The position numbers and the translations under genes are program-made. The notes beneath the pieces were generated by a model. It was given only the letters and a program-made list of their open reading frames with translations, did no database searches and had not been told where the DNA came from. From positions 1 to 43,421 of IMG/VR virus record IMGVR_UViG_3300042480_001391: 43,421 bases of DNA, one strand, 5' to 3'. Within the stretch, counting starts at the first letter, position 1. Each line of letters opens with the position of its first letter. This stretch comes from a virus. Of the stretch, positions 195 to 38,261 are shown piece after piece.

Positions 195-217
195 GCTTTC
201 AACTCGGAGTTGAAGGC
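195..217. promoter_or_regulatory. Palindromic double copy of the GTTGAAAGC motif between divergent genes
   Basis: The sequence reads GCTTTCAAC, five bases, then GTTGAAGGC. The left half is an exact GTTGAAAGC on the minus strand, 20 nt before the ATG at 174. The right half is a one-base variant on the plus strand, 23 nt before the ATG at 241. A TATACA hexamer follows the plus-strand half. The same palindromic arrangement recurs at 18700-18719, again between two divergent genes, which argues for a bidirectional control element. Late promoter function is inference. Confidence 0.6.
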
Positions 218-240
218 TTAGTATACAGGGCGTACAACCG

Positions 241-465
241 ATGGAAAAAATTAGGTTAACAGAGGGACTAGCTTTCCTTATATTCGAGGCGTTGTTCTGC
301 ATATCATTTATCGCCCTTTGCGAAATACCTAACTGGGCCATAGGGGCTAAGCAAGTTAATGCCTGTACAGATAGGTGGATGTTTACAGCAGCTCTTTTTT
401 TCCCTTCTCCGACACAGCAATCCTCCCTCTCTAGCTCTCGTACAAATCGCGGTACGACAAAATAA
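241..465 (+). CDS. Small putative membrane protein, 74 aa
   Basis: The protein has one strongly hydrophobic stretch at about residues 9-27 (GLAFLIFEALFCISFIAL), which looks like a membrane segment, followed by a weaker hydrophobic patch near 46-54 and a Ser/Thr-rich tail. No family is recognised. ATG at 241 has a GTTGAAGGC motif 23 nt upstream and no clear Shine-Dalgarno sequence, as is typical of the motif-bearing genes here. The 3' end overlaps the convergent phoH gene by 35 nt. A small late membrane protein next to a phage control region could be a lysis or envelope factor, but nothing in the sequence proves this. Confidence 0.5.
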   Translation: MEKIRLTEGLAFLIFEALFCISFIALCEIPNWAIGAKQVNACTDRWMFTAALFFPSPTQQSSLSSSRTNRGTTK

Positions 466-1180
466 CCTGTTTTACAAATTCCGAGCGGACAATATCATCG
501 ATTTGGAATTCCACTGAACCGACAAACTCGTCGAGTTTAGACAGTCTGTGAACCGCATCGCTCAGACCGTCCTTTCCAAATCTATTGGCTAAATCGCGCT
601 GGATCACGTCACCTAGTAACGCGATTGAACTGTAGTCACCGAGACGAGAAAGAATAGTCAGCACGCTATGCGCAGTGGCATTCTGCATCTCGTCCGCAAT
701 TACCATGCAACGGTGCAGCGACCGACCTCTTAAATGTTCAATGGGCAAAAACTCGATAATCTTTTTATCAATCAAGTAATCCGCCTTCCCTTTCGCCATA
801 AACACGCTTAACGCGTCCCTTAGCGATGCAATATGCGGCTCGAGCTTTTCCATTTCGTTGCCTGGCAAATAACCAATACCTTTTTCACCGGGCGTATCGA
901 CAATCGGTTTGACATAGTATATTTTATCGATTTGCCGTTTTTGAAGTTTTTCGCAAGCAATGAAGACGGAGAGAAGTGTTTTAGCCGTCCCCGGGGGACC
1001 CGTTAAAATAGTAAGAGTTCGGCTTCGCAAATAATCCAAAGCTTCGCGCTGGCTGTCATTCGCAGGGTGGATCGTCCTGAGGCCGTCTCCCCGCCCTGCA
1101 GGGATCCCATAAGCAATTTCATCGTATCCCGGCACCGATGACTCGGTGACCTTCTCTCGCCTCGTACGCGCTTTAGCCAT
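431..1180 (-). CDS. phoH: PhoH-like P-loop ATPase
   Basis: This 249-residue protein matches the PhoH family, which is widespread in marine and cyanobacterial phages. Walker A is GPPGTAKT at residues 61-68 and Walker B is CMVIADEMQ at about 158-166. The segment KPIVDTPGEKGIGYLPG between them is characteristic of PhoH ATPase domains, as is ALLGDVIQRD after Walker B. The family is linked to RNA metabolism and to phosphate stress in some hosts, but its role in phages is unsettled. I chose ATG at 1180 over an upstream GTG at 1213 because the GTG lies inside a terminator-like hairpin. No Shine-Dalgarno sequence or recognisable promoter is seen directly upstream, so expression probably depends on read-through from the dNMP kinase gene. 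Confidence 0.93.
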   Translation of the reverse strand: MAKARTRREKVTESSVPGYDEIAYGIPAGRGDGLRTIHPANDSQREALDYLRSRTLTILTGPPGTAKTLLSVFIACEKLQKRQIDKIYYVKPIVDTPGEKGIGYLPGNEMEKLEPHIASLRDALSVFMAKGKADYLIDKKIIEFLPIEHLRGRSLHRCMVIADEMQNATAHSVLTILSRLGDYSSIALLGDVIQRDLANRFGKDGLSDAVHRLSKLDEFVGSVEFQIDDIVRSEFVKQVILSYRDLYES

Positions 1181-1197
1181 TGAGTTTTCCAGGTAAT

Positions 1198-1228
1198 AAA
1201 AAAGACGGGACACAAAGACTGTGTACCC
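1198..1228 (-). terminator. Putative intrinsic terminator or attenuator between dNMP kinase and phoH
   Basis: On the minus strand GGG-T-ACACA pairs with TGTGTCCC around a five-base loop (one bulged T), followed three bases later by six T residues. It lies after the kinase stop codon and only 18 nt before the phoH ATG, so it would attenuate rather than simply end transcription if phoH has no promoter of its own. The stem is short (8 bp with a bulge), so its strength is uncertain. Confidence 0.5.
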
Positions 1229-1288
1229 GCCCAGGAGCTGATATATTTTGAACGGAGAACCATTCAGAGAAAAGCACCTACAATGCTT

Positions 1289-1882: not shown

Positions 1883-1888
1883 TGCGGA

Positions 1889-1914
1889 GGGGAGAAGTCT
1901 CCCCAAGTCTAGCA
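1889..1914 (-). promoter_or_regulatory. Extended -10 promoter and 5' leader hairpin of the dNMP kinase gene
   Basis: On the minus strand TGCTAGACT (1914 down to 1906) fits the extended -10 form TGnTAnAnT seen before other metabolic genes here. It is followed at once by the perfect inverted repeat GGGGAGA-CT-TCTCCCC (1904 down to 1889), which would sit at the very 5' end of the transcript, just before the ATG. The box abuts the GTTGAAAGC motif that serves the divergent gene at 1945. Confidence 0.5.
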
Positions 1915-1915
1915 C

Positions 1916-1924
1916 GTTGAAAGC
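1916..1924 (+). promoter_or_regulatory. GTTGAAAGC motif upstream of gene 1945
   Basis: Exact motif copy with 20 nt to the ATG at 1945. No Shine-Dalgarno sequence separates them. TTGAAA of the motif is mirrored by TTTCAA just before the start codon. Confidence 0.6.
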
Positions 1925-1944
1925 CTTATGAGACGATTATTTCA

Positions 1945-2268
1945 ATGCCTAAACCGAGATGGGGTGTTCGGTTTACATCCGACCCGAACAGGACTAAAGA
2001 CTATGTGCAGTCGTTGTATGACGATGATGCCGCCAATGTGAAACGCGGCGAGCTGTTTCTTAACGAGCCGAAGGCCCAGATCTTTTATGTCGGCGCGGAT
2101 GGAATTGCAAGACGTGTAGGCGAGCAGGACGTCGTCCCTTTCGCCCAAATCGATTTTACCGGCCTTAGGGAATTCGCTGACGATACCGCTGCCGCTGCCG
2201 CCACTCCTCCCGTCCCAGTCGGAGGCATGTACCGCACGGGAGGCGCCCTCAAGGTGCGGGTTTCTTAG
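1945..2268 (+). CDS. Small putative virion protein, 107 aa
   Basis: The protein is unfamiliar as a whole, but its pattern GELFLNEPKAQIFYVGADGI (residues 33-52) resembles the short beta-rich display module found in phage fibre and collar proteins, and a similar segment, GEIVTNTADGRAWVFDQSG, occurs in the gene at 18745. An Ala/Pro-rich linker near residues 82-91 leads into GGMYRTGGALKVRVS, another motif common in phage structural proteins. It carries the GTTGAAAGC motif 20 nt upstream and its TAG stop runs directly into the next copy of that motif. I infer a tail or capsid accessory protein made late. Confidence 0.6.
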   Translation: MPKPRWGVRFTSDPNRTKDYVQSLYDDDAANVKRGELFLNEPKAQIFYVGADGIARRVGEQDVVPFAQIDFTGLREFADDTAAAAATPPVPVGGMYRTGGALKVRVS

Positions 2269-2276
2269 TTGAAAGC
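2268..2276 (+). promoter_or_regulatory. GTTGAAAGC motif upstream of gene 2303
   Basis: Exact copy, 26 nt before ATG 2303. The upstream gene's TAG stop supplies the first base. The surrounding TTTCTTAGTTGAAAGCTT is repeated base for base at 26772-26789. Confidence 0.6.
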
Positions 2277-2302
2277 TTAAGGAATAGATTAGATCGAGTA
2301 TT

Positions 2303-3034
2303 ATGGCTACAATCGCTAGATTAAAAAGGCTTGTTGGCATCGAGTTTGAGTACAAAGCTTCGCTCGGAGATTTTTTTGCCACCGTCTTACAGAATAAACT
2401 TGTCAACGAGTACGATGAGACGGGGAACACCCCTGAAATTCGCTCGGAACTGCTGGAAAAATACAACACTTGCGGGCCTAGCATGGGCTTCTCGGCCAAG
2501 CAATTCGCGTATGGGGTCTTGGAACTGGTGGTGGACGCGTTGGTTGCGAATCCGGATGTTGTGACGGATCCGTACGAGAACCAGCTCAATGATCAGCTTG
2601 TGAATATTACAAGGTATGTGGGAATCGCTGGTGAGGGAGATTATCACTTTATGGTGGCAGTGTATAACCTTTCCGCAACGCTTTCCCAAATCACGCAGAA
2701 TGTCATTCCCGTGGGTCCGCTTGTCGCCCTAGGCGATGTACTTGACGGTGGTGAAAACTATACGGTTGACGGTCTAGACGGAGGCGATGCGACCGGTGTT
2801 GTGTTCCGAGCTTATCTCGAGGTCGGTGAACAAAACGATCCTGCTCAGTACGAAGACGCCTCGCTCGAGGGGACGATTGTGGACGGTTCTGTGACCGAGA
2901 TTACCGACATCCTTGACGGCGGTGACGGCTTTGCCGTCGGCGATATCTTGAGTCTGGAGATAGATACAACCGAACCCGGCCAGGGTGACGGTGAAGGATC
3001 CGGCGCGTTAGTTGTGGTTATCGAAGTGGCATGA
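2303..3034 (+). CDS. Putative virion structural protein, 243 aa
   Basis: The first 140 residues look mostly helical and match nothing I know. The C-terminal 100 residues contain two related beta-rich units, VLDGGENYTVDGLDGGDATG and ILDGGDGFAVGDILSLEI followed by GSGALVVVIEV. This pattern (a GGxG(Y/F) turn, a strand, then Gly-Ser-Gly-Ala and a strand) is common in cyanophage virion proteins. The C-terminus is acidic and the protein lacks cysteine apart from one residue near 58. ATG at 2303 follows a GTTGAAAGC motif by 26 nt. Position upstream of the hub suggests a tail or baseplate part; the exact role is unknown. Confidence 0.65.
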   Translation: MATIARLKRLVGIEFEYKASLGDFFATVLQNKLVNEYDETGNTPEIRSELLEKYNTCGPSMGFSAKQFAYGVLELVVDALVANPDVVTDPYENQLNDQLVNITRYVGIAGEGDYHFMVAVYNLSATLSQITQNVIPVGPLVALGDVLDGGENYTVDGLDGGDATGVVFRAYLEVGEQNDPAQYEDASLEGTIVDGSVTEITDILDGGDGFAVGDILSLEIDTTEPGQGDGEGSGALVVVIEVA

Positions 3035-3146
3035 AGTGCATAGCCTCTATCGTTGCAGGTGCCTGGTAGGTTATAGGCCGTTTTCTACCGGCGATCAGGA
3101 GATTATATGGTTCCCGGAAAGGCAGATTGCCGGGGTAACCTTGTCA

Positions 3147-6857: not shown

Positions 6858-7375
6858 TGTTGTTTTTAAAACCGCTTCTCGGACTGTTTTTCAAAGACGT
6901 GGTGCAAGACGCCGCGAAAAAATCCGTTCAAAACTCTTTGAATGAACTGTCAAAAGAGCAGATAAGGCGTGAGTTTCTCCGCACAGTAGCCGAAGGCTAT
7001 ACTCGCGAAGTCGAACACAACTTGTCGCAATACGTACGCGCTTTAGGGGCCGCTTCGGTAACGATCGAAGCGGAGGGGGACTTGACAGGAGACAGACTAT
7101 TCTCCGCCCTGCAAAGCTCGCTTAAAACGCTTGAAGTTGAGATCGAAAAGCAGGGGGAAAATTCTCCCATCGTCCAGTATTTAAAAAGACGGTATGGCGA
7201 GGAGCAAGACGTTTATGTCGGCAGAGAGTCCGTTTCCGTCGCCAGCATGTTTTCTCCGGGAGAATCCCGGCAACAAATATGGCTTAATAGGTCGGGCAAT
7301 ATCGAACTGCCTGAGTCAATATCACAAGAAGTCGCTAACCTGCTCGATCAAATATTGTCCGAAGACTTGCCATAG
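6857..7375 (+). CDS. Hypothetical protein coupled to the hub gene, 172 aa
   Basis: The ATG shares a base with the hub stop codon (TAATG), which suggests translational coupling and a shared role, perhaps in baseplate assembly. The N-terminus MLFLKPLLGLFFKDVV is amphipathic or weakly membrane-seeking, the middle is rich in charged helices (residues 20-60) and the rest is mixed, with many Ser and Glu. No family is recognised. Its 3' end overlaps the convergent gene at 7348 by 28 nt, so the two operons collide here without a visible terminator. Confidence 0.6.
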   Translation: MLFLKPLLGLFFKDVVQDAAKKSVQNSLNELSKEQIRREFLRTVAEGYTREVEHNLSQYVRALGAASVTIEAEGDLTGDRLFSALQSSLKTLEVEIEKQGENSPIVQYLKRRYGEEQDVYVGRESVSVASMFSPGESRQQIWLNRSGNIELPESISQEVANLLDQILSEDLP

Positions 7376-8061
7376 TACTTCGCCCCCTTGATAATATTTT
7401 CCCTCGGATCAAGAACCTGGTACTGCGCATTCAAAGCGTGGTAATCAAACCAGCTTTCTGACATCTCGACACAAGAAAGACGACAAGTAACACCCACACA
7501 TTTGACGGGTATTGTTTCCAGGTCTAGAGAATTGTCTCGGCACCATTCCTCGACAAGCCGTATAAACGGATATACGTGATCGACATGATACGTCCCGTGT
7601 ATCGGCTTGCCTGTCAACGACGATTTAACAACATTTTGACCCGAGACTCGTCTTTTATAAAGATCGATCTGCGGTTGGATAATATTTCTCAAAGCACGGA
7701 TCGCGAGTTTTCTATTCTCCTTGGCCGGGTCGGGGACATAAGTCTTTGGGAATATTTTCGACATTACATACGATTTTCCCACCCATACTTCGTACTTAGA
7801 CGTGGGTGTCATCAAGACTACACCCTTGACTTTGCGACCATTAAACTCTTTGCTTGTGAGTTTGAACTTGCACTGTCCAGGCCTTAAGACGATTTTCCTG
7901 AACCTTTCAATCTTGAGACAGATTTGCCTCATGAACAAGGTGTCCTCTTCGTTAAAAAAGACACCTGTCTCATAAGATGAAGTAATAGACTTCCATCTCT
8001 CCGCGAACTGTTTTTTATTGTATTGCTGCTCGCCAATCTCCGTATATATCGACTTACCCAT
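7348..8061 (-). CDS. DUF3223 (DCL)-like protein with HxDH motif
   Basis: The diagnostic region is SSLTGKPIHGTYHVDHVYPF at about residues 147-166, followed by a helix and the segment ETIPVK. This TG-x(n)-HVDH-x3-F signature fits the DUF3223/DCL family, known from plant plastid proteins and from many phages; the His-Asp-His cluster suggests a degenerate HNH-like metal site, though no activity is established. It is the last gene of the leftward operon. ATG at 8061 overlaps the sigma-factor stop; a GTG one codon upstream is also possible. The N-terminal 140 residues are basic and could bind nucleic acid. Function is unknown. Confidence 0.6.
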   Translation of the reverse strand: MGKSIYTEIGEQQYNKKQFAERWKSITSSYETGVFFNEEDTLFMRQICLKIERFRKIVLRPGQCKFKLTSKEFNGRKVKGVVLMTPTSKYEVWVGKSYVMSKIFPKTYVPDPAKENRKLAIRALRNIIQPQIDLYKRRVSGQNVVKSSLTGKPIHGTYHVDHVYPFIRLVEEWCRDNSLDLETIPVKCVGVTCRLSCVEMSESWFDYHALNAQYQVLDPRENIIKGAKYYGKSSDNI

Positions 8062-8779
8062 CACTCATAAGTTTGCTAAGCAGCTCGTCCGTCCTCGCTG
8101 CAATCTTATCCGCACTATTAATCCCCGGATTCTTGCGATAGATAGTTGACACAGCTCTTTTGTGAATGTAAACATCCATTAGAAATGTGTATTCTTCTGG
8201 GGAAAGTTTCGAAAGCCTACCTATAATATCCCCGTAATCGCTAAACATCGAGGCGAGATTATCGTCATCAATCCCCCCGTCATCAACTGGCATCTCCGTC
8301 TCCTCGTTAATCTCCAAATACGTCATTTGAAACGCCTCACGCGTCTCGGCTATAAGATGTTCGGTCAGGCCGGTAGCCTCAGATATCTGCGCGTCAGTGA
8401 GGTCTGGGTTCCGCCCCACAATCCTCCTCATTTTCATATAAGCGTCTGAATACGACCGGGGTATCTTGATCATTCGCGAGTTATCGCGCAAATAATTCAA
8501 TAGCTGAAAAGTCAACGAGCGATTTAACCAAGTACTGAAATTGGCTTTTTCCGGGTCCCACTTGTCATAAAGTTTGACCATTGCTTCAAGGGCAACAGAC
8601 CTCAACTCGTCAAATGGAACACCAGAAAACGATGCCACTTTCCTCGCGGCATAACTCGCTTTCCACATATTTTCCCGGATGTGAAAATCGCGAGTCCGCT
8701 CGTACTCCGTCTTCCTCCGATTATAATTATTCCTAAGCCTCTCCCTTCTCAGCTCGACATTAATACCTTGCGTGGTCAT
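8054..8779 (-). CDS. Phage-encoded sigma-70-type factor
   Basis: The 241-residue protein has a clear sigma region 2 at about residues 35-107: FDELRSVALEAMVKLYDKWD, NFSTWLNRSLTFQLLNYLRD and RMIKIPRS align with the core-binding and -10-melting segments of sigma-70. Region 3 follows (VGRNPDLTDAQISEATGLTE, about 125-144). Region 4 is poorly conserved: after LSPEEYTFLMDVYIHKR the usual helix-turn-helix that reads the -35 box is not recognisable. This resembles T4 gp55-type late factors, which depend little on a -35 contact. Its start overlaps the thioredoxin stop (TGATG). I infer that it redirects host RNA polymerase to late phage promoters, possibly those carrying GTTGAAAGC. Confidence 0.82.
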   Translation of the reverse strand: MTTQGINVELRRERLRNNYNRRKTEYERTRDFHIRENMWKASYAARKVASFSGVPFDELRSVALEAMVKLYDKWDPEKANFSTWLNRSLTFQLLNYLRDNSRMIKIPRSYSDAYMKMRRIVGRNPDLTDAQISEATGLTEHLIAETREAFQMTYLEINEETEMPVDDGGIDDDNLASMFSDYGDIIGRLSKLSPEEYTFLMDVYIHKRAVSTIYRKNPGINSADKIAARTDELLSKLMSDG

Positions 8780-9111
8780 CAGGCTCTGCCTCCCTTAATC
8801 GAATTGATCACGAAGCTTTTAAGTTGCGAAGCGGGCATAATGCCTTCACCGTTAAACCCGATCAAATCGCATTCTTCGTCAAAAACAGCGATTTCTGGAG
8901 TTCCTTGCCCGGAAGTTCCCGGCTTAAGAGACTCGAGAAATTCCCAGTTGTCCTCAGTGACGTCGTATTCTCCCCAGCCCACACGCAGTTCTGGGTATTC
9001 TTCAGATACTTCTCCGGCCACTTGTCCCCAAATCGGTTTCATAGCTTCGCAAGCGGGGCATCCGGGCTGTACGAAGAGTACGACTTTTCTTAAAAAGGTC
9101 TCTTTTTCCAT
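8779..9111 (-). CDS. Thioredoxin-like protein with CPAC active site
   Basis: The 110-residue length and the sequence VVLFVQPGCPACEAMKPIW fit a thioredoxin fold, with the redox pair Cys18 and Cys21 in a CPAC motif. The cis-proline region TPEIAVFDEE lies at about residues 71-80 and a Gly-rich turn follows. It could reduce ribonucleotide reductase or another disulphide partner, or serve in virion assembly. A good Shine-Dalgarno sequence (AGGAG) lies 9 nt before ATG 9111, and an extended -10 box (9142-9150) precedes it, so it opens its own transcription unit with the sigma factor although it sits inside the larger leftward operon. Confidence 0.85.
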   Translation of the reverse strand: MEKETFLRKVVLFVQPGCPACEAMKPIWGQVAGEVSEEYPELRVGWGEYDVTEDNWEFLESLKPGTSGQGTPEIAVFDEECDLIGFNGEGIMPASQLKSFVINSIKGGRA

Positions 9112-9141: not shown

Positions 9142-9150
9142 ATTTTAGCA
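9142..9150 (-). promoter_or_regulatory. Extended -10 promoter of the thioredoxin-sigma unit
   Basis: On the minus strand TGCTAAAAT follows the terminase TAG stop directly. The distance to ATG 9111 leaves room for a leader of about 25 nt containing AGGAG. It matches the boxes at 27331, 31240, 31643 and 34117. Confidence 0.55.
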
Positions 9151-10731
9151 CTATAAATACTGAGTTGGCAAGCTCCCTCTTCCGAGTCTTCCCGTAACTC
9201 TTTGACTACCCCCAATATGATTGATTTGGGGGAGTTGAACTCTAGATCCCCCATGGGCAGCCTTGGCCGCCCCCATAATCTCATCCCTATACACTCTTAA
9301 ACCCATGACAAAAGCGTCGACAAAATCATCATTCTTTGAGTAAGGAAAAGCACACAGCTCTGACATTAATTCACCGAGCTTGGGAATTTCTGAATATATC
9401 GAAACTCGACCGTCTTCCGCCACGGGAGCAACTTCATTCGCCCTCATAATCTTATCTTTGGTTGGGATTACCTCCTTCACCGGAATTTGCAATTCTTTCC
9501 TAAGCATTTGTATCAAAGGAAGTCCACTAGCCCTGCTCTCGATATAAATAGCCCTTACTTTCCAGGTTTTCAACCACAGCGGCATCACCTTTAACAAGTC
9601 AGGAAACTCCATATGTTCTTTATAAACATTAATAAGGTGTAATTTCCTCGTCTTTTTAACAACCCCAAACACGCACATAACCGAGTAATCGTTCATCTCT
9701 TTTTCTTTAAGGGCAGTATCGGCAGTTGCGAATACAAACTCGTATTGTTGAAGATTTTTCTCATGCTGCTCGAACCAGGAGTGTTTAAAAATCGAACCGC
9801 TGGCGCCCTTAGGTCTACCAAGATACAGCGTCTCAAAAGTATTCTTGTCCTGCTTTTCAATAGCTTTCAATTCTTCTACTGGGAAAAACTCCGGCCAATG
9901 CGATTCACCTAACTTTCTACCTATAGGATCGTTCTCCTCATCAAGACACAAAGCGGGCACATTTAACTCTAGCCAACCCTCCGGGTCGCTTGATAGCAAT
10001 CTCCCGATAACATCTTCTACGTGGAATCTGGTTCCCATAGACATAACGCAGTTATTTGGAAGACCTCTAGTAAGGAACTGGGCCGTAGCCCAGGCAAAAG
10101 TTGAGTCAAGTACTTGTAGTGAATTACCGTCTTCAAGTAAATCGTCTAAGATGCCGATACCCGGTAAATCTTCTTCACTAATTACACCGAATCCAAAGCC
10201 GGTTACGCCGGACCCTGCGCTAGCAGACATTATAATTCCGCCCTGACCAGTCCTCATAGTTTTAAGGTTACAGTCTTTTTTATTAATACTGCATTCAGGA
10301 AATATCCATTTAAACGTATCGCTTGTAATATAACTCAATATCGCCCTGGAGTTCTCGTGTGTGAGCTTAAGACCATAAGACGCCATGATGAACTGAGCGC
10401 TGGGGCTACGTCCTAGCTGCCAACTCGGCATTAATTTAGATATAAGCATGCTTTTGCCGCTCCTAGGCGGCAAGGATATACAGGTTCTTTTATAATCCGG
10501 ATTCCCGTCACAGATATTCTGAACATAGTCACATATTAACTCGTGTACTCTATACGGAGTAAATACGCCGCTGTTTGTAACTTCTCGGGTAATTACTCGG
10601 GCGTAGGTAATAAATTCCGTGCGGCACTTTAGCCGAAGCAGTTCTTTTCTCTCCTCCTGGCTCAAACTCTCAACTTTCAGCATCATCTCTTTGACAAGAG
10701 ATTTCTCTTTCGCCAATTGGCTCTTATTCAC
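9151..10731 (-). CDS. terL: Terminase large subunit (packaging ATPase-nuclease)
   Basis: The 526-residue length and motif order fit phage TerL. Walker A is PPRSGKS at 88-94, Walker B is GIGILDD at 191-197, and the C-terminal RNase H-like nuclease shows ATADTAL with NDYSVMCVFGV (about 334-355), IYIESRASGLPLIQML, and FPYSKNDDFVDAF. It drives DNA into the prohead and cuts the concatemer. No small subunit, portal or capsid gene is in the window. GTG at 10731 overlaps the spike gene stop by 8 nt. A GTTGAAAGC motif lies 23 nt upstream inside the spike coding sequence, which supports this start and suggests an internal late promoter. Finding terL inside a baseplate operon is unusual for contractile phages. 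Confidence 0.93.
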   Translation of the reverse strand: MNKSQLAKEKSLVKEMMLKVESLSQEERKELLRLKCRTEFITYARVITREVTNSGVFTPYRVHELICDYVQNICDGNPDYKRTCISLPPRSGKSMLISKLMPSWQLGRSPSAQFIMASYGLKLTHENSRAILSYITSDTFKWIFPECSINKKDCNLKTMRTGQGGIIMSASAGSGVTGFGFGVISEEDLPGIGILDDLLEDGNSLQVLDSTFAWATAQFLTRGLPNNCVMSMGTRFHVEDVIGRLLSSDPEGWLELNVPALCLDEENDPIGRKLGESHWPEFFPVEELKAIEKQDKNTFETLYLGRPKGASGSIFKHSWFEQHEKNLQQYEFVFATADTALKEKEMNDYSVMCVFGVVKKTRKLHLINVYKEHMEFPDLLKVMPLWLKTWKVRAIYIESRASGLPLIQMLRKELQIPVKEVIPTKDKIMRANEVAPVAEDGRVSIYSEIPKLGELMSELCAFPYSKNDDFVDAFVMGLRVYRDEIMGAAKAAHGGSRVQLPQINHIGGSQRVTGRLGRGSLPTQYL

Positions 10732-13700
10732 AGTCGGTTTCTCCGCTCTCCCTCGCTTTCAACTCTTCGTACAGTGAAGTGCGTTCTTGCCCGGGGAATA
10801 CGAACCCGTCCGGGAAGACAGTACCGGCGGGTAGTAAAGTCCCGGACGGTAGCGCTACACCTGTTGGTAGCGAAGACCCTTCGGGGAATACGGTGCCATC
10901 CGGAATAACAAACCCTTCGGGCAATGGCAAATCTTGTGTAACAGTGCCGCCACTTGTTGGAGACGCATCACCCGCCCTTTGAATAAACGTATTCTTAAGA
11001 GTGTTGATTTGATTCGGCGACAGCACCTGGTCAATAGGCGGCTTGTTCTCTTGCAAATCGTCTACAATCTTCGAATCAAGCGAGATAGACAGGAATCTCG
11101 CCTCGTCAAATAGCGTGCGTTCGTTGGGGAAGACGATTGGCAGAGGGGGATTGTAAAGTCCGAGCTTAACAGGAGTTCCCAAGCCTGGAGTCATCGTCTC
11201 CCATTCAAGATGAGCAGGCTTTATACCGCCCTCCATAATCTTAGTAGTCTCGATCTTGTTCTTTTCGTACAGCCCCGCAAGCCCGGGGATATTCGCTAAC
11301 GCCAGTCCAATTGACGGGGTAACGTTAACACCGATCCTCGGGCCGTCTTTAACCAGGTCGAGGGTTTTGACAAACCGGTATATAGACTGCAAGGCCTGGG
11401 AATTCTCCCTAACATCTGTAATAAGTTGTTGAAGAATGGCGGTCTCCGGGCCCGGCTTCCAGAATATATTCTGCAGCGTATTATACCCGGAGTCTATAAG
11501 TCGCCTTTCAACTGATTCAATGCGGGTAATATTATTATCCGCCATTTTGAACCCTTTTTCCACGTTTTCAAACGTGTAAGCAAATTCCGCCTCTTTCTCC
11601 GCCTCGTCCGCATAACGAGATTCATAGAACTTCTCCGCCATGTTTACAAGACGCTGCGACCCGTATATCATCTGGGTCAAGTCACTTGTGTTAGGAGGGA
11701 TTAGATTTTTACCAACTAGAGTAGGAGTAAGTCCCAAGTCAAATGCTACGTCTCCAACATTGTTTGGTAAACAAAAACCTGTGGGACAATAGGCATTGGC
11801 ATTTACACTCGTCAAAGCACCACACGGATCGAGCAATTTCTGGCCGTCCGTATCGACTCCATGTGCAACTTTGCGACACTTAGGATCACAAGGACAGTTA
11901 CCGCCCGCCCCACCAAACAACGAGGACAATGCTCCAATCCCAAACAGCGCAGTTGATATTGGGTTGAACCCGCCCCCTACAAGAGCGGCAAGCCCGTTAA
12001 AGCCTATGCCACCCCCTAAGCCACCAAACAACGATTGCACTGCGTTGCCAATGCCCAGCGCACCCATGGCTGTGCTAGCGAGAAACGGTAACGATCCCAA
12101 GGCGCCTGGCGCCATCGGCATTCCGGCCAAATTACTGAACTGGTTGAACATTTGCCCCATTGGCCCCAGGGCCCCACCCCCAATCAACGAGGCGGTAGAG
12201 GACAGGATCTGAGGCGTTATTGCGTTCCTGCCGAGCAGCGAGTTAAACGTACCGGAAACAGCGGCAGTCAATCCGCCACCAGACGCGGTGTTAAGAATAT
12301 TTCCTAAGGCGGTGGGATACCCCGCGAGCACGTTCCTGGCGATTCCGACAACCGGCTGGACGTACTTGTTCACCTCAGGGGGGAGTTTGCTCAGCCCGAG
12401 GATAGTGGCTGTATCAATCGCGCCCCAGACTCCTCCAGACATCAAGCCGGTCATTACCGATGCGGTCTGCGGACTTAACGAAAGCAGCGAATTTCTTAAG
12501 GCGTTTTGGCCGATATTTACCAGGGCTTGGTCAACCGTGCCCCCAACAACCCCGTTAGTCAATACCCTGCCCGCATCGCCTATACCTGTCAATAGTTGTG
12601 CAGTTTCGAATGACAGTTTCCCATCTCTGTCTAGCTCTTGTCTTAACGTGTTAGTTAAAGTGTCGACAGGAATTCCGAGTCTGCGGTTCATCGCCTCTCT
12701 CGCAGCGGTAGACAATACCTGCGCACCGTTAAACGCCTGAGCCGGTAACAGCCCCGCCAGTTGCAATGCGTTCCTAAGGGCCGGATCTGTATTAGTTAGA
12801 GGGATGTTGGAGATTACGGTATCGAAGACTGTTTCAATAATCTCTGGTTCCTTGAGCCAATCGAACCCGCCCTCTTCAAGTGCGGGCACCGGCCCATACC
12901 CATCCAGAAATTCCACCTTCGTAAGCGGTTTATCCTTTTTGTGAAACTTGTGCGGGAGTCTTTTACCCTCCTTCACCCACCTCATAAGCCCTTGATATCT
13001 CAAACATTTTACAATTTCCGAGTTGTTTCCATCGTCTACAACCGCCTCCATGCCATGTATTTTTTCCGAGCAAGTAGGCAAAGTGGTTCTGAAGAATACA
13101 GGAGGAGCAGATTCCGGGATCCAGCCAAACTCTCCGTTCTCATCCCTTCTGCAGACCATGCTTGTTGTCCTGAATCCCCTATCCTCAGAAAAGTCATGCT
13201 TCTCGCCAAGCAGTGACTCAGTACATTCCGGTATGCCCGGATTTCTCAACTGCGCTTGCTCGATCGGGATTGTGGTTTCGTTCCCCGGGTTAATACTTTT
13301 TTCGATCCAAAGCCCGTTGGTCAGGGATTTCCACGCCCAAGCCGGTTTATTACCAACTTGAGGGCTACTCCGCCTAAGACAGACAACAACATCTTGATTG
13401 ATTTCGTTACTCAGTATATACGTGCGCCCCTCGTTCTCCCTATTGCAAGTCATTCCAGGGTCGGAAGATCCATTCCAGACCGCCATGCTCTCATCGATTA
13501 TAGGGAGTTGGAAAGGCGACCCATTCAATCCAACATCCTTGTCATTCTTAACAATACCGATGACATACATATTCTCGCTTCGGCCATTTGTCTTACCAAC
13601 CAAGACGTTCGAGCCGATATATCTCGAGCTTAACGTGCCGCTACTCGAACCGGACACAGGGATCCATTTAGAGGTGAATCCGTCGTCCGTAGTGACCTTG

Positions 13701-17674: not shown

Positions 17675-18679
17675 TCAAAAGGTTGTAGTACGGGTTCTTT
17701 GCGAGAATGGGAGTCCTCTGCCCGGGTCAGAGTTCTCCGTATCCTTTAACGGGGTGATGAAATCGCCATTGGAATTGACCCCGGGCTGATAGGTGGTGTA
17801 ACCATTGATCTCCACCACAAGCTTCGCCACATCAACAGCGTACATTTTCTGGTCAGCAGGACTTAATGCTCCGATGCCAGTAAAGTCTCGAATCGTGCCG
17901 ATAGTCCCCAGGCCAGCCAGAGAGCGAGACACGTTCCTCGCCTCTTGGACATCACTTAATGAGAGAAGAGAGTCTAATCCCGGCCTGAGCAGCGATTCCA
18001 AAGGCCTGGTAGTAGCGTAACCGACATACCCTTCTGACAACGATTTAAGAATTGTGTCGGGAAGGTTCTGAGCCGTAGACCCAGCCCCGGGCAAAGCGAT
18101 ACCGGCGAAATAATCTTCCGGAGTAAGATACCCTGTAGAGAATTCGACCCCTCTGTAATCAGATGTCAAACCGACCGAGTCGGAAAGCGGCAATAAAGAA
18201 CCGGCTGGCAATTTGTCCGGCTTGCGTGCAGGCACTACAGATGCGAGATTAGAGTAAACTTCGAGATCGGGTATGATTTTTTTAAGCCTGTTGACAAGGC
18301 CGGGGCCGGAAATCCCGGGCACTTCTAGATAGTCAATAACACTGGACAATGACGTCTCATAACTAGACATCTCGCCATATGATGTCAAGACGTTTTTGTG
18401 CAAATTACTGGCAACTTTGGCCAGGTTGTTTCCCGGCGTGTTTACGTACCTAGAAAACTCGCGATTAGTCTCATACTCTTGTTCAAGAGCAGAAAAGACT
18501 TTATCCTTGGTTAACGCTTGCTCGATCAACATGGCCGGGGTCATGCTGTTTACAATCCCTCCGACAGGCGAGTTCGCAATTACCTGATTCGCTACTTCCG
18601 GGTATCTCTCGGGCGACCCGTAGGCGACCGAAGCAAGACCGGTAATTGTCGACCAGGAATCCGTGGCGTAAGTAGACAA
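17675..18679 (-). CDS. Putative LysM-like baseplate protein, 334 aa
   Basis: The N-terminus DSWSTITGLASVAYGSPERY followed by PEVANQVIAN (about residues 7-36) has the layout of a LysM module (start-up helix, Ala-Tyr-Gly, Pro-Glu-Arg-Tyr-Pro, Asn), as found in gp53-like baseplate proteins. The remainder is mixed helix and loop with no domain I recognise. It heads the leftward baseplate operon. The start is TTG at 18679; it is supported by an exact GTTGAAAGC on the same strand 20 nt upstream and by the absence of any nearby ATG at the right distance. In the phage it probably helps join tube, sheath and wedges. Confidence 0.65.
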   Translation of the reverse strand: MSTYATDSWSTITGLASVAYGSPERYPEVANQVIANSPVGGIVNSMTPAMLIEQALTKDKVFSALEQEYETNREFSRYVNTPGNNLAKVASNLHKNVLTSYGEMSSYETSLSSVIDYLEVPGISGPGLVNRLKKIIPDLEVYSNLASVVPARKPDKLPAGSLLPLSDSVGLTSDYRGVEFSTGYLTPEDYFAGIALPGAGSTAQNLPDTILKSLSEGYVGYATTRPLESLLRPGLDSLLSLSDVQEARNVSRSLAGLGTIGTIRDFTGIGALSPADQKMYAVDVAKLVVEINGYTTYQPGVNSNGDFITPLKDTENSDPGRGLPFSQRTRTTTF

Positions 18680-18699
18680 GAATTTTTACCCTATAACTG

Positions 18700-18719
18700 G
18701 CTTTCAACTCGTTGAAGGC
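18700..18719. promoter_or_regulatory. Palindromic double copy of the GTTGAAAGC motif between divergent virion operons
   Basis: GCTTTCAAC-TC-GTTGAAGGC. The minus-strand half is exact and 20 nt from the TTG at 18679. The plus-strand half is the GTTGAAGGC variant, 25 nt from ATG 18745. TATAGG hexamers follow both halves on their own strands. The arrangement mirrors the one at 195-217. Confidence 0.65.
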
Positions 18720-18744: not shown

Positions 18745-19230
18745 ATGGCAGAAGCGAGTATTCAGAACTTAAGTACGCCTTTGGCGAACGAAGAACCGTT
18801 TCTGGGGGACGGGGACGAAGGCGAGATTGTCACAAACACGGCAGACGGCAGAGCATGGGTCTTTGACCAGTCTGGATTCCCTGTCGAGTTAGGAGGCGCT
18901 TGCGTTAATAAACCGATCGCGGGTAACTTGTTCGCTGGCAACTACCTCGAACTTGACATCACCGATCCGGATAATTTACCCATTCCGAACACCGATCCGC
19001 TCCAGGTCAGGCCAGGAAATTACCGCGAAATACGGATTCTGGCAAGATTTGTAGGCGAACCGTTGACGACATTTTCCGCCTACTTCGACTACCCGGTTGA
19101 CTGGGCAAGTGGAAACTCGTTAGACGATTATGCAGAAACAGGGGCCGAAGTCCTTATCGAGCTGAGTAGTTTTGGCCCTCGACCCGCCTGGATCGCAAGA
19201 GTACTGTGGGCGAAAGTCGTTGAAAGCTGA
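18745..19230 (+). CDS. Putative tail-fibre-associated protein, 161 aa
   Basis: The N-terminal segment GEIVTNTADGRAWVFDQSGF (about residues 27-46) is the short beta module often seen at the start of phage fibre and collar proteins, and is similar to one in the gene at 1945. The rest is beta-rich with a cluster of Pro and Asp (LDITDPDNLPIPNTDPL). A longer frame could begin with TTG at 18712, but that lies inside the palindromic control element; ATG at 18745 follows the motif by 25 nt. Its last codons form the GTTGAAAGC motif of the fibre gene. It probably links the fibre to the baseplate. Confidence 0.65.
   Translation: MAEASIQNLSTPLANEEPFLGDGDEGEIVTNTADGRAWVFDQSGFPVELGGACVNKPIAGNLFAGNYLELDITDPDNLPIPNTDPLQVRPGNYREIRILARFVGEPLTTFSAYFDYPVDWASGNSLDDYAETGAEVLIELSSFGPRPAWIARVLWAKVVES
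19219..19227 (+). promoter_or_regulatory. GTTGAAAGC motif upstream of the giant fibre gene
   Basis: Exact copy that doubles as the last codons (Val-Glu-Ser) of the upstream gene; its TGA follows directly. The fibre GTG start is 22 nt downstream. Confidence 0.6.
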
Positions 19231-19249
19231 GTAGTAGTTTAAGCTTATT

Positions 19250-26736: not shown

Positions 26737-26750
26737 TCGCCCTTAGCACG

Positions 26751-26778
26751 CCCCGGGCTTATGTCCGGGGTTTTCTTA
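26751..26778 (+). terminator. Intrinsic terminator after the ssDNA-binding candidate
   Basis: CCCCGGGC-TTAT-GTCCGGGG forms an 8-bp GC-rich stem with one G-T pair and a four-base loop, followed by TTTTCTTA. It starts 14 nt after the stop codon. The next GTTGAAAGC motif begins right at its end. Confidence 0.85.
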
Positions 26779-26787
26779 GTTGAAAGC
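26779..26787 (+). promoter_or_regulatory. GTTGAAAGC motif directly after a terminator, upstream of gene 26812
   Basis: Exact copy 24 nt before ATG 26812. Because a strong terminator lies just upstream, this gene needs its own promoter, which makes this the clearest argument that the motif is transcriptional. The inverted repeat CTTGTTA-TCT-TAACAAG follows within the spacer. Confidence 0.65.
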
Positions 26788-26811
26788 TTGTTATCTTAAC
26801 AAGTCGAGCTA

Positions 26812-27333
26812 ATGGAAACGAAAGCGCCTTATGGCTGGTCGTCACTGAACAAAGACGAAGTGTCTTACGAGTTTGGTGAGGCGAGAATGGGCACAGGCCC
26901 TAACGACATTCCTTCTAACCAGATCGGCGAGGGGGAAGACGATTACCACAGCAGAGACGTATCCCCTGACTCGGAGTTTGGTGCTGCGAAAGTAGCAGAT
27001 AACCGAGACGGTTACGGCGGTAAAGATGACTATCGCCCTAAGGCTGGGGACAAAGACCCTGCCGATGTGGGTACCATAAACCTCCCAATCGGGCACATTG
27101 TCATCGAGGATGGTGTTGTCCAGGGGAGGAATTACTACCTCGTGCAGGACATTAAGTCGGAGAAAATGTACACCGTAGTGCCCAATTTCAAAGGTGGTGA
27201 GACCTATAAATCCCCTATGCGTGGTGACCGGACTTCCGCTTTGCAAGACGCCTATAGGACGCTTTCGGCTACGTTGCCCGACTCGGCCCTGGCTCAACTT
27301 CGAGAACGGTTCCCGGAAACTCTCGCTTTGTGA
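26812..27333 (+). CDS. Hypothetical acidic protein, 173 aa
   Basis: The N-terminal half is polar, Gly/Asp-rich and probably disordered (residues 10-90). The C-terminal half is compact: INLPIGHIVIEDGVVQGRNY and YLVQDIKSEKMYTVVPNF are regular strands, then a helical end rich in Leu and Arg. No family is recognised. It has its own GTTGAAAGC motif and follows a terminator, so it is probably a late gene even though its neighbours are metabolic; a minor virion protein is a reasonable guess. Its TGA stop forms part of the nrdB promoter. Confidence 0.6.
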   Translation: METKAPYGWSSLNKDEVSYEFGEARMGTGPNDIPSNQIGEGEDDYHSRDVSPDSEFGAAKVADNRDGYGGKDDYRPKAGDKDPADVGTINLPIGHIVIEDGVVQGRNYYLVQDIKSEKMYTVVPNFKGGETYKSPMRGDRTSALQDAYRTLSATLPDSALAQLRERFPETLAL

Positions 27334-28534: not shown

Positions 28535-28693
28535 ATGGCTTTATCTAAGACTGACAAAAACGAGAAGATTATGAAGTCGTCCCACGGGACTACTTGCCTT
28601 ATCACACAAGCGGGCAAGGCAGACAGGCTTCTCGATCTTTCAAGAATTCGGAAAATCGCTGAGAAGAGGCGAGCTAGTGATTGGGAAATCTAA
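28535..28693 (+). CDS. Small basic hypothetical protein, 52 aa
   Basis: Starts at ATG 28535 (MALSKTDKNEKIMKSSHGTT) and ends KKIAEKRR-like: the C-terminal half, LLDLSRIRKIAEKRRASDWE, is a likely amphipathic basic helix. It lies between the 51-residue gene and the HNH gene with only 4-5 nt gaps, as expected for a dense phage operon. A nucleic-acid-binding or accessory role is possible but unsupported. Confidence 0.5.
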   Translation: MALSKTDKNEKIMKSSHGTTCLITQAGKADRLLDLSRIRKIAEKRRASDWEI

Positions 28694-28697
28694 TACA

Positions 28698-29186
28698 ATG
28701 GATGTAAACATTAACATACCAACGGGGTGGTCTTTGCCTGAAGACGATGATGACGAGTACACGAGCATGGAAGAAGTCCCTGCCCTGGACCCTGAAGATG
28801 AGAAGAAAGAGAAATGGCTTAGGTGGAAAGACTCCCCTTACCAGGTGAGTGATATGGGCAGGGTTAGGCGTGTCCAACAGAACGGCTCGTTCAAGTTAAG
28901 AAAGCCTCGATCGGATGATAGGGGTAAGCATAGAGTCAATCTTACTTGGGAAAGTCAGGGAGTTCCGCATCGTGAAGAGCCGTTTGTCCACCAAGCCGTG
29001 ATGGAGTTATTTGGACCTGAAAAACCCAGTGGAGAAAACATAGTCATCTGCCATAGGCATCCTACTGGCGAAGATGGCAAACCGGATAATAGGCTAACTA
29101 ATCTCTACTGGTGCAATAGGAGTAAAAATGTTAAAGATAGTTGGGATGACGGCCTTATGGAGGAAGGTGCGAAATGGAAAGACTGA
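28698..29186 (+). CDS. NUMOD4-HNH-type homing endonuclease
   Basis: The segment SPYQVSDMGRVRRVQQNG (about residues 46-63) is a NUMOD4-like DNA-binding motif. It is followed by FVHQAVMELFGPEKPSGENI and VICHRHPTGEDGKPDNRLTN then LYWCNRSKNVKD, the usual HNH-like block of these enzymes (His119, Asn131, Asn135, Asn144). Such genes are selfish elements that cut phage DNA lacking them, and the space between nrd genes is a classic insertion site. ATG at 28698 is preferred to an earlier in-frame GTG at 28677, which would overlap the previous gene. The acidic N-terminus (EDDDDE) is unusual. No intron boundaries were seen, so this is free-standing. Confidence 0.8.
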   Translation: MDVNINIPTGWSLPEDDDDEYTSMEEVPALDPEDEKKEKWLRWKDSPYQVSDMGRVRRVQQNGSFKLRKPRSDDRGKHRVNLTWESQGVPHREEPFVHQAVMELFGPEKPSGENIVICHRHPTGEDGKPDNRLTNLYWCNRSKNVKDSWDDGLMEEGAKWKD

Positions 29187-32328: not shown

Positions 32329-32501
32329 GCAATCCGCAAGTATTGATACCCGATTTCAAACGCCCCTGGTGTAAAAATTGCCAGGGGCGGGGATTCAAAG
32401 TACTTGAAATATACGACCCGGGTAAAGAATGCCCGAGGTCCGAAGCAGTAGAATGCCCTGATTGCGGAGGTACGGGTGACAAGTTTAAGTCCAGAGATTG
32501 A
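32325..32501 (+). CDS. DnaJ-type zinc-finger microprotein, 58 aa
   Basis: A short frame from ATG 32325 contains two CxxCxGxG units: WCKNCQGRGF (Cys16, Cys19) and CPDCGGTGDK (Cys45, Cys48). This is the zinc-binding signature of DnaJ cysteine-rich domains, here reduced to one pair. Such mini zinc fingers are frequent in phages and usually have no assigned role. ATG overlaps the dut stop (ATGA) and the C-terminus overlaps the start of the HNH gene by 26 nt, so all three are probably translated together. Confidence 0.7.
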   Translation: MSNPQVLIPDFKRPWCKNCQGRGFKVLEIYDPGKECPRSEAVECPDCGGTGDKFKSRD

Positions 32502-32949
32502 GGTTTTAGTTTTAAACTTCGACTACACGCCTTTGAACATTGTCCGTGGCAGAAGGGCTATTGTTCTTTTGCTAAAAAACAGAGCGCAGCGGGTATCAGA
32601 GAAAGTAATCCGCCTTCTCAAGTATATTAAAATGCCGCTTAATCGGGCGGCAAGGGAAAAACCTACAAAGACGGGAATCTACAGGCGAGATGGCTACAGT
32701 TGCCAGTATTGTGGCAGCACCAGGAGTCTAACAATCGACCATGTTATTGCCAGAAGCAGGGGTGGTCAGGATACTTGGGAAAACCTTGTGCTGGCATGCT
32801 CCAAGTGCAATGTTAAGAAGGCGGATAGGCCCCTGCAACAGACGGGAATGGTATTAAAAAAGAAACCAAGGCCTCCCTTGCCCAAGGTAGTGGAAACCGT
32901 ACAACAATCTAAAGACCCGGAATGGGCGACTTACGGATTTTTCGGTTGA
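32476..32949 (+). CDS. HNH endonuclease of a cyanobacterial type
   Basis: The 157-residue protein opens with EVLVLNFDYTPLNIVRGRRA and then has a full HNH finger: CQYC at 76-79, DH at 88-89 (LTIDHVIARSRGG), Asn103 (WENLVLAC) and CSKC at 108-111, followed by NVKKADRPL. The layout matches small HNH proteins common in cyanobacteria and cyanophages. It probably nicks or cuts DNA; roles in packaging, homing or host DNA breakdown are all possible. The start is GTG 32476, within the zinc-finger gene. Its TGA stop lies inside the next GTTGAAAGC motif. Confidence 0.88.
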   Translation: MTSLSPEIEVLVLNFDYTPLNIVRGRRAIVLLLKNRAQRVSEKVIRLLKYIKMPLNRAAREKPTKTGIYRRDGYSCQYCGSTRSLTIDHVIARSRGGQDTWENLVLACSKCNVKKADRPLQQTGMVLKKKPRPPLPKVVETVQQSKDPEWATYGFFG

Positions 32950-32953
32950 AAGC
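32945..32953 (+). promoter_or_regulatory. GTTGAAAGC motif upstream of gene 32974
   Basis: Exact copy overlapping the HNH stop codon, 20 nt before ATG 32974. TTTATAAA stands just ahead of the start codon. Confidence 0.6.
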
Positions 32954-32973
32954 TTTGCGTACCCGTTTATAAA

Positions 32974-33471
32974 ATGGTGAACTTTACTTTCAATCTTTTT
33001 AACAAGCTTCCCTTTGCCAGCAAGGCATATGAAAGTGTGGCAAATTTCGTAAATAAAAATCTGCTCGACAGAAAACTTTTCAATCCCGCCTTTCTCGCCA
33101 TCGCCTTTAACGCTGTCGACTCTTTTTGGTTGAAGCATAGGAGTACGGACTGGTATTCCCGGTCCGAACTTAGGGTGATTACCGGCTCGATCTTAGAGTC
33201 GATTTCTGATAATAATCTTAGCGAGAAGGAGGTAGAAAAGCTTACACGCTATATTCTGTCGAAATGGGATCCGAGAGTGGCGGAGCAGAAACAACAATCT
33301 CCCGAACTGCTTGACAAGGTAGAAAAGAACGCGGAAGTCACAGTCAAAGCGTATCGTAAAATCGGCAAGAAGGTTAAGCCGAGCAAGCTTGTTGCCGAAG
33401 CGGCCAAAGTGTCTAAGGCTAAGGCATCTGACGACGGAATTATCGAATCATTGACCAGGATATTTCGTTGA
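32974..33471 (+). CDS. Hypothetical late protein, 165 aa
   Basis: The N-terminus MVNFTFNLFNKLPFASKAYE leads into a largely helical protein. The C-terminal 60 residues are very basic (VKAYRKIGKKVKPSKLVAEA, AAKVSKAKA), which would suit DNA or RNA contact. No family is recognised. It has its own GTTGAAAGC motif and its stop codon falls inside the next one. By promoter class I infer a late, possibly internal virion, protein rather than a replication factor, despite its neighbours. Confidence 0.6.
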   Translation: MVNFTFNLFNKLPFASKAYESVANFVNKNLLDRKLFNPAFLAIAFNAVDSFWLKHRSTDWYSRSELRVITGSILESISDNNLSEKEVEKLTRYILSKWDPRVAEQKQQSPELLDKVEKNAEVTVKAYRKIGKKVKPSKLVAEAAKVSKAKASDDGIIESLTRIFR

Positions 33472-33475
33472 AAGC
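33467..33475 (+). promoter_or_regulatory. GTTGAAAGC motif upstream of gene 33494
   Basis: Exact copy containing the TGA stop of the preceding gene; 18 nt to ATG 33494. The spacer is mostly the inverted repeat TTTGAAA-GCGTA-TTTCAAA. Confidence 0.6.
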
Positions 33476-33493
33476 TTTGAAAGCGTATTTCAA

Positions 33494-33892
33494 ATGACTT
33501 ATTACGAGAAGCCTAAGGGCTGGAGCGAAGCGCCGAAGGAGAGTTGGGTCTCTGGGACGCCTATCGGTCAAAGTGAGATCAAAATGCCGGACCTGGGGGA
33601 CCCTGGGGCCCACGAGGACGCCTCGGACAAGGTGTCTTTTGAGGATGCTGGCACTCCTGCCCTGTACCAAGGCAGGTCGGTATCTCAATGCCCTCCAGGC
33701 ACCAGCAACCAGAAAGGTGTCTGCATGCCGGATCCGAAGTCCGAAGCCAGCCTTGAATCCAAGATCGAGACCGCCACTAAAGGTGGTAAAGGCGAACGTT
33801 CGTTCAAGCGTGAACTTCCCGAAGCGCCTAAGGAAGCTGATGCTCAAATTCGCCGCCTTGCCAAAGAAGGAGTGAAGGGGCGGGCGGCATGA
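33494..33892 (+). CDS. Hypothetical polar protein, 132 aa
   Basis: The sequence is Pro-, Gly- and Lys-rich and likely disordered over most of its length. A short segment SVSQCPPGTSNQKGVCMPDP (residues 62-81) has two Cys that could pair. The C-terminus (REL PEAPKEADAQIRRLAKEG region) is helical. No homology is recognised. It carries its own late-type motif and is coupled to the next gene by an ATGA overlap. It might be a scaffold, inhibitor or minor virion protein. Confidence 0.55.
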   Translation: MTYYEKPKGWSEAPKESWVSGTPIGQSEIKMPDLGDPGAHEDASDKVSFEDAGTPALYQGRSVSQCPPGTSNQKGVCMPDPKSEASLESKIETATKGGKGERSFKRELPEAPKEADAQIRRLAKEGVKGRAA

Positions 33893-34119: not shown

Positions 34120-34143
34120 TATACTGGGTTCAACAAAGAACCC
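34117..34143 (+). promoter_or_regulatory. Extended -10 promoter and 5' hairpin of the replication operon
   Basis: TGATATACT (34117-34125) includes the stop codon of the preceding gene. It is followed at once by GGGTTC-AACAAA-GAACCC (34126-34143), a perfect 6-bp stem ending one base before ATG 34145. No Shine-Dalgarno sequence is free in the leader. If transcription starts about 7 nt after the box, the mRNA is almost leaderless and the full hairpin would not form; the palindrome could then be an operator in the DNA. Confidence 0.6.
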
Positions 34144-34144
34144 C

Positions 34145-37181: not shown

Positions 37182-37267
37182 TAATGACTCGACTCATCGC
37201 CTTGCTATTGACAATCACCCTCTTCTACGGTATCCTGATCCTAATGCTTCTCCCCTACATTAAATGA
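37178..37267 (+). CDS. Single-span membrane microprotein, 29 aa
   Basis: Frame MIMTRLIALLLTITLFYG then ILILMLLPYIK, almost entirely a transmembrane helix with one Arg near the front and a Lys at the end. Its ATG overlaps the helicase stop (ATGA) and its own stop overlaps the primase start (ATGA), so it fills the gap exactly and would be translated by coupling. The perfect fit and strong hydrophobic character argue that it is real. It might anchor the replication proteins to the membrane or act on the host envelope; neither is shown. Confidence 0.6.
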   Translation: MIMTRLIALLLTITLFYGILILMLLPYIK

Positions 37268-38247
37268 CAACCGCTACCATCTCCCTGGATCAAGAATCTT
37301 GGGACCATAAACCGTCGGCCAAGATCCAATACGGCAATTTAACCGATAAGTATGGCAATCCTAAAAGCGAGGTTAGGGTCCTGGGTCTCCGGCTTGGCAC
37401 CGACACAGCCGAGGTCACATCGAAATCACTCGCCAGGGCCATAGTCCAAGGCAAGACATGGTCGCCTTTTGTATTCAACGAGTGTCCGGATTGGAAACGC
37501 AGGCGCAGGATCGAGCCTTTGTTCAAGAGCTGCCAAGTCCTAGGTGTGGATTATGATGATGGCGATTCGGCTGAGGAAATCATCCAACAAGCAGGACAAC
37601 TCGGAATACAATTCAACATTTTACACCACTCCTTCTCAAGTACTCCCGAACATCCCAAGTTCAGAGGTATTATCTTTCTTGAGCAGGAAGTGACAGAGTT
37701 CCAGCAAGCGAAACTGTTTTCTACGGCTTTGGCACATGGCCTGAACGCTGATAAATCATGTGTCGATGTCGCCCGGTTGTATTTTGGCTCCAAACCCGAC
37801 TCGATCGTGTATTTCAATGACGAGGTAGTCACATCGTTGGGAGTGTTGCAGTCACTAGCCGATTCTGTCTCTGCCTCTCAGTATGTTGTTAACCGCGATC
37901 CTGAGTCAAAAGAGTACGAGCCGGACTGGGGAACAGAAGACGATCAGCGCAAGATATTTGCCAGGCTTTCGCCCGGAAAGCGTACATTTGTCCGACGCAA
38001 GATTGGTGGCTTGCTTCTTGAAATCGAGAAATTTGACGGCTCGAATGGTTCAAGCCGTTACGAGTGTTTGTGGCGTAACACGTCTCGTATCGCGAGGATG
38101 AAGGAAACAGTCGGCAATGTAATCCTGAGCTGGGTGCTGGAACGGGTGGAGAAAAATTCACACTTTGACGGATGGGACAAAAACCCCGAGGAGGTTGTTA
38201 AGAACGCGATTGCCTGGAGCTTTGAGCATAGCGATCCGCCTGTGTGA
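37264..38247 (+). CDS. Archaeo-eukaryotic (AEP)-type primase
   Basis: The 327-residue protein shows the three AEP motifs: motif I VLGVDYDDG (92-100, Asp96 and Asp98), motif II LHHSFSSTPEHPKFRGIIFL (120-139) and motif III SCVDVARLYFGS (165-176, Asp168). The C-terminal part, YECLWRNTSRIARMKETVGN with basic and aromatic residues, resembles PriCT-type domains. It would make primers for the SF3-like helicase encoded just upstream, a pairing common in plasmids and viruses. ATG overlaps the microprotein stop. The last codon is followed by the next late-type motif. Confidence 0.72.
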   Translation: MTTATISLDQESWDHKPSAKIQYGNLTDKYGNPKSEVRVLGLRLGTDTAEVTSKSLARAIVQGKTWSPFVFNECPDWKRRRRIEPLFKSCQVLGVDYDDGDSAEEIIQQAGQLGIQFNILHHSFSSTPEHPKFRGIIFLEQEVTEFQQAKLFSTALAHGLNADKSCVDVARLYFGSKPDSIVYFNDEVVTSLGVLQSLADSVSASQYVVNRDPESKEYEPDWGTEDDQRKIFARLSPGKRTFVRRKIGGLLLEIEKFDGSNGSSRYECLWRNTSRIARMKETVGNVILSWVLERVEKNSHFDGWDKNPEEVVKNAIAWSFEHSDPPV

Positions 38248-38252
38248 AAATC

Positions 38253-38261
38253 GTTGAAAGC
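38253..38261 (+). promoter_or_regulatory. GTTGAAAGC motif marking the switch from replication to tail genes
   Basis: Exact copy 24 nt before the GTG at 38286 and 5 nt after the primase stop. The spacer is the hairpin CCAAGTA-TAAGCATT-TACTTGG, with TATAAG as its loop side. Confidence 0.65.

Follow-up and report, generated by a model that had tools for sequence, protein, structure and literature searches.

A box before virion genes of TIM5-like myoviruses, probably the upstream part of a compact two-part late promoter

Bacteriophage SPO1 encodes its own sigma factors, gp28 and gp33/34, and a phage sigma replaces the host sigma for the later genes. In the middle promoters of T4 the MotA box is centred near -30, about 12 bp from the -10 element, and promoters of the SigF/SigD/sigma28 type (group 3 sigma factors) have about 15 bp between TAAA and -10. 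The late promoters of T4 (the gp55/gp33/gp45 system) are 8 bp long and have no upstream element (PMC2988020), and cyanophage Ma-LMM01 has promoters of the host type (PMC5780444).

How does the element described here, a 9-bp box followed by a short TAGA-like element, compare with these systems? Like the T4 late element it occurs genome-wide before virion genes, and a phage sigma-family protein would act with the host core enzyme. Unlike in T4, the upstream box is the main signal, no homologue of the gp45 sliding clamp was found (PF02916 matched the T4 control only), and the phage sigma carries a sigma4 domain in its structural model, unlike the split T4 type, in which gp55 lacks sigma4 and is joined by gp33. 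The T4-type sequence TATAAATA stands between box and start codon at only 1 of 55 sites of one spelling of the box and 2 of 123 of the other. The SPO1 type is similar in that a phage sigma would serve a later gene class through a two-part promoter unlike the host's, but the spacing here is about 4-6 bp, not about 17, and the sequence is unrelated. The SigF/SigD/sigma28 group shares with the present phages a SigF annotation in S-TIM5 and a full-length model alignment, whereas the gap between box and TAGA is much shorter here.

The box in the window and in related phages

The window, by which we mean the whole 43 kb stretch analysed (an IMG/VR record), is part of the genome of a phage that is syntenic with cyanophage S-TIM5. 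The large terminase it encodes and that of the S-TIM5 group share 58% identity, and the gene order PhoH, structural genes, sigma, terL, baseplate, tail fibre, nrdB, nrdA and primase is the same in both. We found psbA in S-TIM5 and several of its relatives that carry the spelling GTTTAAAG, and did not find it in the window-clade contigs G001, G006, G007 and G009. Two HNH endonuclease genes of the homing-endonuclease style lie in the window, at 28677-29186 (between nrdB and nrdA) and at 32476-32949 (after the dUTPase gene).

An earlier, sequence-only reading had listed ten exact copies of GTTGAAAGC and two GTTGAAGGC variants in this DNA, and we verified coordinates and strand of all twelve:

195..203, minus strand: upstream box GTTGAAAGC of the truncated divergent gene 1-174; TAGA at 188-191; the G009 orthologue has the same box
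209..217, plus strand: upstream box GTTGAAGGC; TATA at 222-225 (N4); back-to-back with the 195-203 box, 5 bp apart
1916..1924, plus strand: upstream box of gene 1945-2268, the orthologue of S-TIM5 gp114 (virion structural)
2268..2276, plus strand: upstream box of gene 2303-3034, the orthologue of S-TIM5 gp112 (virion structural)
10755..10763, minus strand: doubtful box before the GTG (10731) of terL
18700..18708, minus strand: upstream box of gene 17675-18679, the orthologue of S-TIM5 gp100 (virion structural); TATA at 18692-18695 (N4)
18711..18719, plus strand: upstream box GTTGAAGGC of the gene from ATG 18745 (gp99 orthologue); back-to-back with the 18700-18708 box, 2 bp apart
19219..19227, plus strand: upstream box of the tail fibre gene (GTG 19250); TAGT at 19232-19235 (N4)
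26779..26787, plus strand: upstream box of gene 26812-27333; TATC at 26792-26795 (N4)
32945..32953, plus strand: upstream box of gene 32974-33471
33467..33475, plus strand: upstream box of gene 33494-33892; overlaps the preceding stop codon
38253..38261, plus strand: upstream box of gene 38286-40193 (GTG), the orthologue of S-TIM5 gp71 (virion structural, CIS-tube-like); TATA at 38266-38269 (N4)

Dinucleotide shuffles of the window hold 0.52 +/- 0.67 exact copies (maximum 2), so that the reported excess over chance stands. One-mismatch variants number 31 against 20.8 by chance, a slight excess, and the GTTGAAAGC consensus is therefore strict. At 12 of 12 sites the end of the box lies 18-26 nt before a start codon on the same strand, as had been noted. 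The claim of a fixed spacing to that codon did not hold up: the distance varies, and what is constant is the distance from the box to the second element, TAGA or TATA. Measured from the first base of the box at 55 GTTGAAAGC sites upstream of genes in relatives, the start codon follows at 27, 32 and 42 nt (10th, 50th and 90th percentiles); for GTTTAAAG sites the 10th-90th percentile range is 29-50 nt.

The box had also been credited with predicting the GTG start of terL. A copy is indeed present there, but it is the weakest of the set, and we doubt it because it lies within codons of the upstream open reading frame (where it encodes E-L-K-A), is followed by no second element or well-placed TA, and is not conserved in position among relatives, while chance alone should yield about 0.5 copies; this one may have arisen in that way.

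A motif search in relatives, one of the checks that the sequence-only reading had proposed, found the element genome-wide and at orthologous genes. Contigs whose terL shares 68% identity or more with the window's contain GTTGAARGC 34 times in 123 kb (G001), 25 times in 119 kb (G006) and 14 times in 44 kb (G007); the reversed pattern, used as a control, was seen 0-2 times in each contig (once in G001). Contigs with a terL at most 62% identical nearly lack GTTGAARGC, and the S-TIM5 orthologous genes have GTTTAAAG at the corresponding position. We also searched 11 genomes de novo, with no prior motif, for 7-mers enriched in the 60 nt upstream of genes. In G001, G006 and G007 the top-ranking 7-mers came from GTTGAAAGC, and in S-TIM5 and a further seven relatives they came from GTTTAAAG. 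This upstream-only search gave the element, whereas 8-mer enrichment over whole loci gave no clear signal in the distant relatives.

Judged by these correspondences, GTTGAAAGC and GTTTAAAG are two spellings of one element. In the tree of the phage sigma factor they fall on opposite sides of a split with support 100/100, a match that is a correlation without statistical power as a test of co-evolution, because a single spelling change is visible. Alignments and tree show the sigma to be 37-44% identical between the clades, compared with about 53-62% for terL, with a long inter-clade sigma branch. The close contig L018 has no box in its 11 kb, though both its sigma and its terL place it in the GTTGAAAGC clade.

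Which genes carry the box? It is not equally frequent inside genes: 25 of 36 S-TIM5 copies are found in the zone 15-60 nt upstream of annotated starts, which makes up 2.8% of positions. In S-TIM5 it precedes 17 of 47 virion genes and 8 of 165 others (Fisher P=1.6e-7). With gene class in relatives assigned via S-TIM5 orthologues, the same bias was seen in G001, G006, G007, G012, G017 and G018 and was not significant in G014, results that are not independent, since the contigs share ancestry. In the orthologue alignment, most virion-type genes of both clades retain the box, and nrdB, primase, exonuclease and the thioredoxin-sigma pair have none upstream; the box before gene 1945-2268 is kept in 7 of 7 relatives that have the orthologue. 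A host-like TATAAT, examined in S-TIM5 as a marker of non-virion genes, showed no difference between the classes.

A second element locked to the box

The TATA-like sequence reported shortly after the motif proved to be TAGA or TATA at a set distance, N4 in the clade of the window. Across the 55 GTTGAAAGC sites, positions 14-18 counted from the start of the box read TAGAA, and TA[GT]A begins at position 14 in 18 of 55 sites, compared with a control mean of 0.5 per position. At the same sites the start codon lies at widely varying distances from TA[GT]A, 5-44 nt. At the GTTTAAAG sites (n=123) the second element is found at positions 13-15. Conservation is much higher in the box than in TAGA, and within the window itself TA stands precisely at N4 in only about half of the sites. 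Comparative analysis of these sequences establishes that the element has two parts, where it lies, which class of genes it precedes, that it is conserved, and that its two spellings follow the sigma tree. The second element keeps step with the box and not with the start codon, as in a promoter; a signal for translation would be expected to keep a constant distance to that codon.

Candidate readers and rival explanations

The genes and promoter candidates that bear on a reader of the box in the window are the following:

8054..8779, minus strand: phage sigma factor (sigma2-sigma3-sigma4), proposed reader of the box
8779..9111, minus strand: thioredoxin-like gene, upstream of and overlapping the sigma gene; no box
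9142..9171, minus strand: candidate sigma70-type extended -10 promoter for the trx-sigma pair, TTGCCA-18-TAAAAT with TG
37208-37236, plus strand: host-type promoter candidate before the box-less gene 37264

Exactly one Sigma70_r2 protein was found in each of 9 of 9 records tested, its gene near terL, and the S-TIM5 records annotate it as SigF (gp108 of S-TIM5). The predicted structure (mean pLDDT 80) has three helical regions with sigma4-like helices at the C-terminus, and the overall pTM of only 0.40 leaves the placement of the domains uncertain. The model aligns along its full length with structures of the sigma28, sigma32 and sigmaS types (E=4e-6). Orthologues of the trx-sigma pair have TGnTATAAT upstream. 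The gene that adjoins the sigma gene in the window (7348-8064, minus strand) encodes a protein with an HNH-like stretch, HVDHVYPF, that matched no family.

We consider it likely that GTTGAAAGC serves as the upstream box in a compact late promoter of two parts, GTTGAAAGC-N4-TAGA (in the kin of S-TIM5, GTTTAAAG-N6-TA(A/G)), used lineage-wide in TIM5-like myoviruses for virion genes, with a sigma cascade as its proposed control. A phage-specific late promoter element was the first choice of the sequence-only reading, and it gains comparative support from the relatives, the orthologues, the virion genes, the locked second element, the terminators and the back-to-back pairs. The phage sigma with the host core enzyme is the likeliest reader. 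Host RNA polymerase with the host sigma would transcribe the early and replication genes, the trx-sigma pair included, from TATAAT-type promoters. The sole phage-encoded sigma (8054-8779, minus strand) would then steer the host core polymerase to the box and TAGA promoters, with TAGA as the -10 element. Transcription would start about 12 nt past the T of TAGA, giving late mRNAs leaders of about 2-10 nt. Reader, start site, leader length and temporal order are thus what we infer here.

Could a separate phage protein bind the box instead? A DNA-binding activator on the box, with a host or phage sigma holoenzyme on TAGA, would resemble T4 MotA with the host sigma, and T4 middle promoters likewise combine an upstream box with a -10-like element. 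The conservation of the box, far above that of TAGA, and its location, where sigma contacts are usually not strong, speak for such a protein, as do the palindromes that abutting boxes form in divergent pairs. However, a single box has no dyad, a gap of 4 nt would place the factor within the footprint of the polymerase, and no homologue of MotA was found here (PF09114 matched the T4 control only). Many genes are unannotated, which leaves room for an activator of another kind; on balance we regard this explanation as unlikely.

Does the box act in DNA or in RNA? As an element of the 5' leader, the lesser choice of the sequence-only reading, it would aid translation of genes that have no Shine-Dalgarno sequence. 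The box always lies shortly before start codons, and Shine-Dalgarno sequences are few at the genes that follow it (2 of 25), but they are also uncommon at box-less genes (36 of 187), and the difference is not decisive. The lock between box and TAGA, alongside the 10th-90th percentile range of 27-42 nt from box to start codon, disfavours a signal in the leader. So do the intrinsic terminators that end against boxes, two of them in the window:

26750..26778, plus strand: intrinsic terminator (26750-26771), stem of 9 bp (7 G-C), T tract running to the 26779 box
2243-2257: terminator-like hairpin with T tract, ending at the 2268 box; weaker than the 26750 terminator

Such terminators end within 5 nt of a box at 12 of 265 sites, compared with 0.3% of random positions and with 2 of 187 S-TIM5 starts that lack the box. 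Back-to-back pairs of boxes occur 14 times in relatives, 0-17 bp apart, and head-to-head pairs 0 times; the two pairs of the window are the same as those of G001. In pairs only 0-2 bp apart, each leader would be nested within the leader of the other gene. The report of short inverted repeats in the spacers did not extend to a general feature, the mean fold z-score of 55 leaders being -0.27, and no Rfam family matches the window. An RNA element is, in our view, very improbable.

A promoter for a phage-encoded single-subunit RNA polymerase of the T7 type is less probable still. The string box-N4-TATA spans 17 nt, like T7 -17 to -1, and a few sites have a TATA-like end beside a G. But single-subunit polymerase (PF00940) had no match in five records (T7 control, E=1e-109) and none in a wider nine, searched with no control; multisubunit RNA polymerase domains were likewise absent from the records tested, with cellular genomes as positive control, and the S-TIM5 genome is complete.

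The reading of TTGAAA as the canonical -35 box of a sigma70 promoter, one base off TTGACA and in a window with host-like promoters elsewhere, can be dismissed as next to impossible on geometry: similarity to TATAAT peaks at position 14 and not at 23-27, the second element follows the box by 4-6 bp and not by the 16-18 bp that separate the sigma70 -35 and -10 hexamers, and, with start codons about 27-35 nt downstream of the first base of the box, a -10 element at 16-18 nt would land on the start codon and transcripts would start inside the gene, unless the called starts were wrong throughout.

Geometry and significance of the proposed late element

Placing TAGA at -12 as a -10 element would put the box at about -25 to -17 and leave a leader of about 2-10 nt. 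No sigma known to us relies on a strong box at this place, for which reason a helper protein may be needed, and to our knowledge neither sigma4 nor the extended -10 region makes strong contacts there. For the preferred sigma-read promoter we offer, as a tentative proposal that we hold with less than even confidence, a geometry so far undescribed: the TIM5-like sigma with host core would read a 9-bp box just upstream of the -10 element (about -25 to -17, 4 bp from TAGA) instead of a -35 element, late mRNAs would be virtually leaderless, and every late promoter would have switched its spelling between GTTTAAAG and GTTGAAAGC, in one direction or the other, along with a sigma that diverged strongly. 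We found no published report of the motif in a literature search that did not reach the 2012 PNAS paper on S-TIM5.

TIM5-like phages are a distinct, ocean-wide lineage of myoviruses, for which we found no description of the transcription programme. The element would give a sequence rule for their late genes, so that late operons could be called in any metagenomic relative. It would also provide a clean test of a sigma that uses a box beside the -10 element in place of a -35 element, and the clade-wide difference in spelling would supply natural pairs of sigma and promoter.
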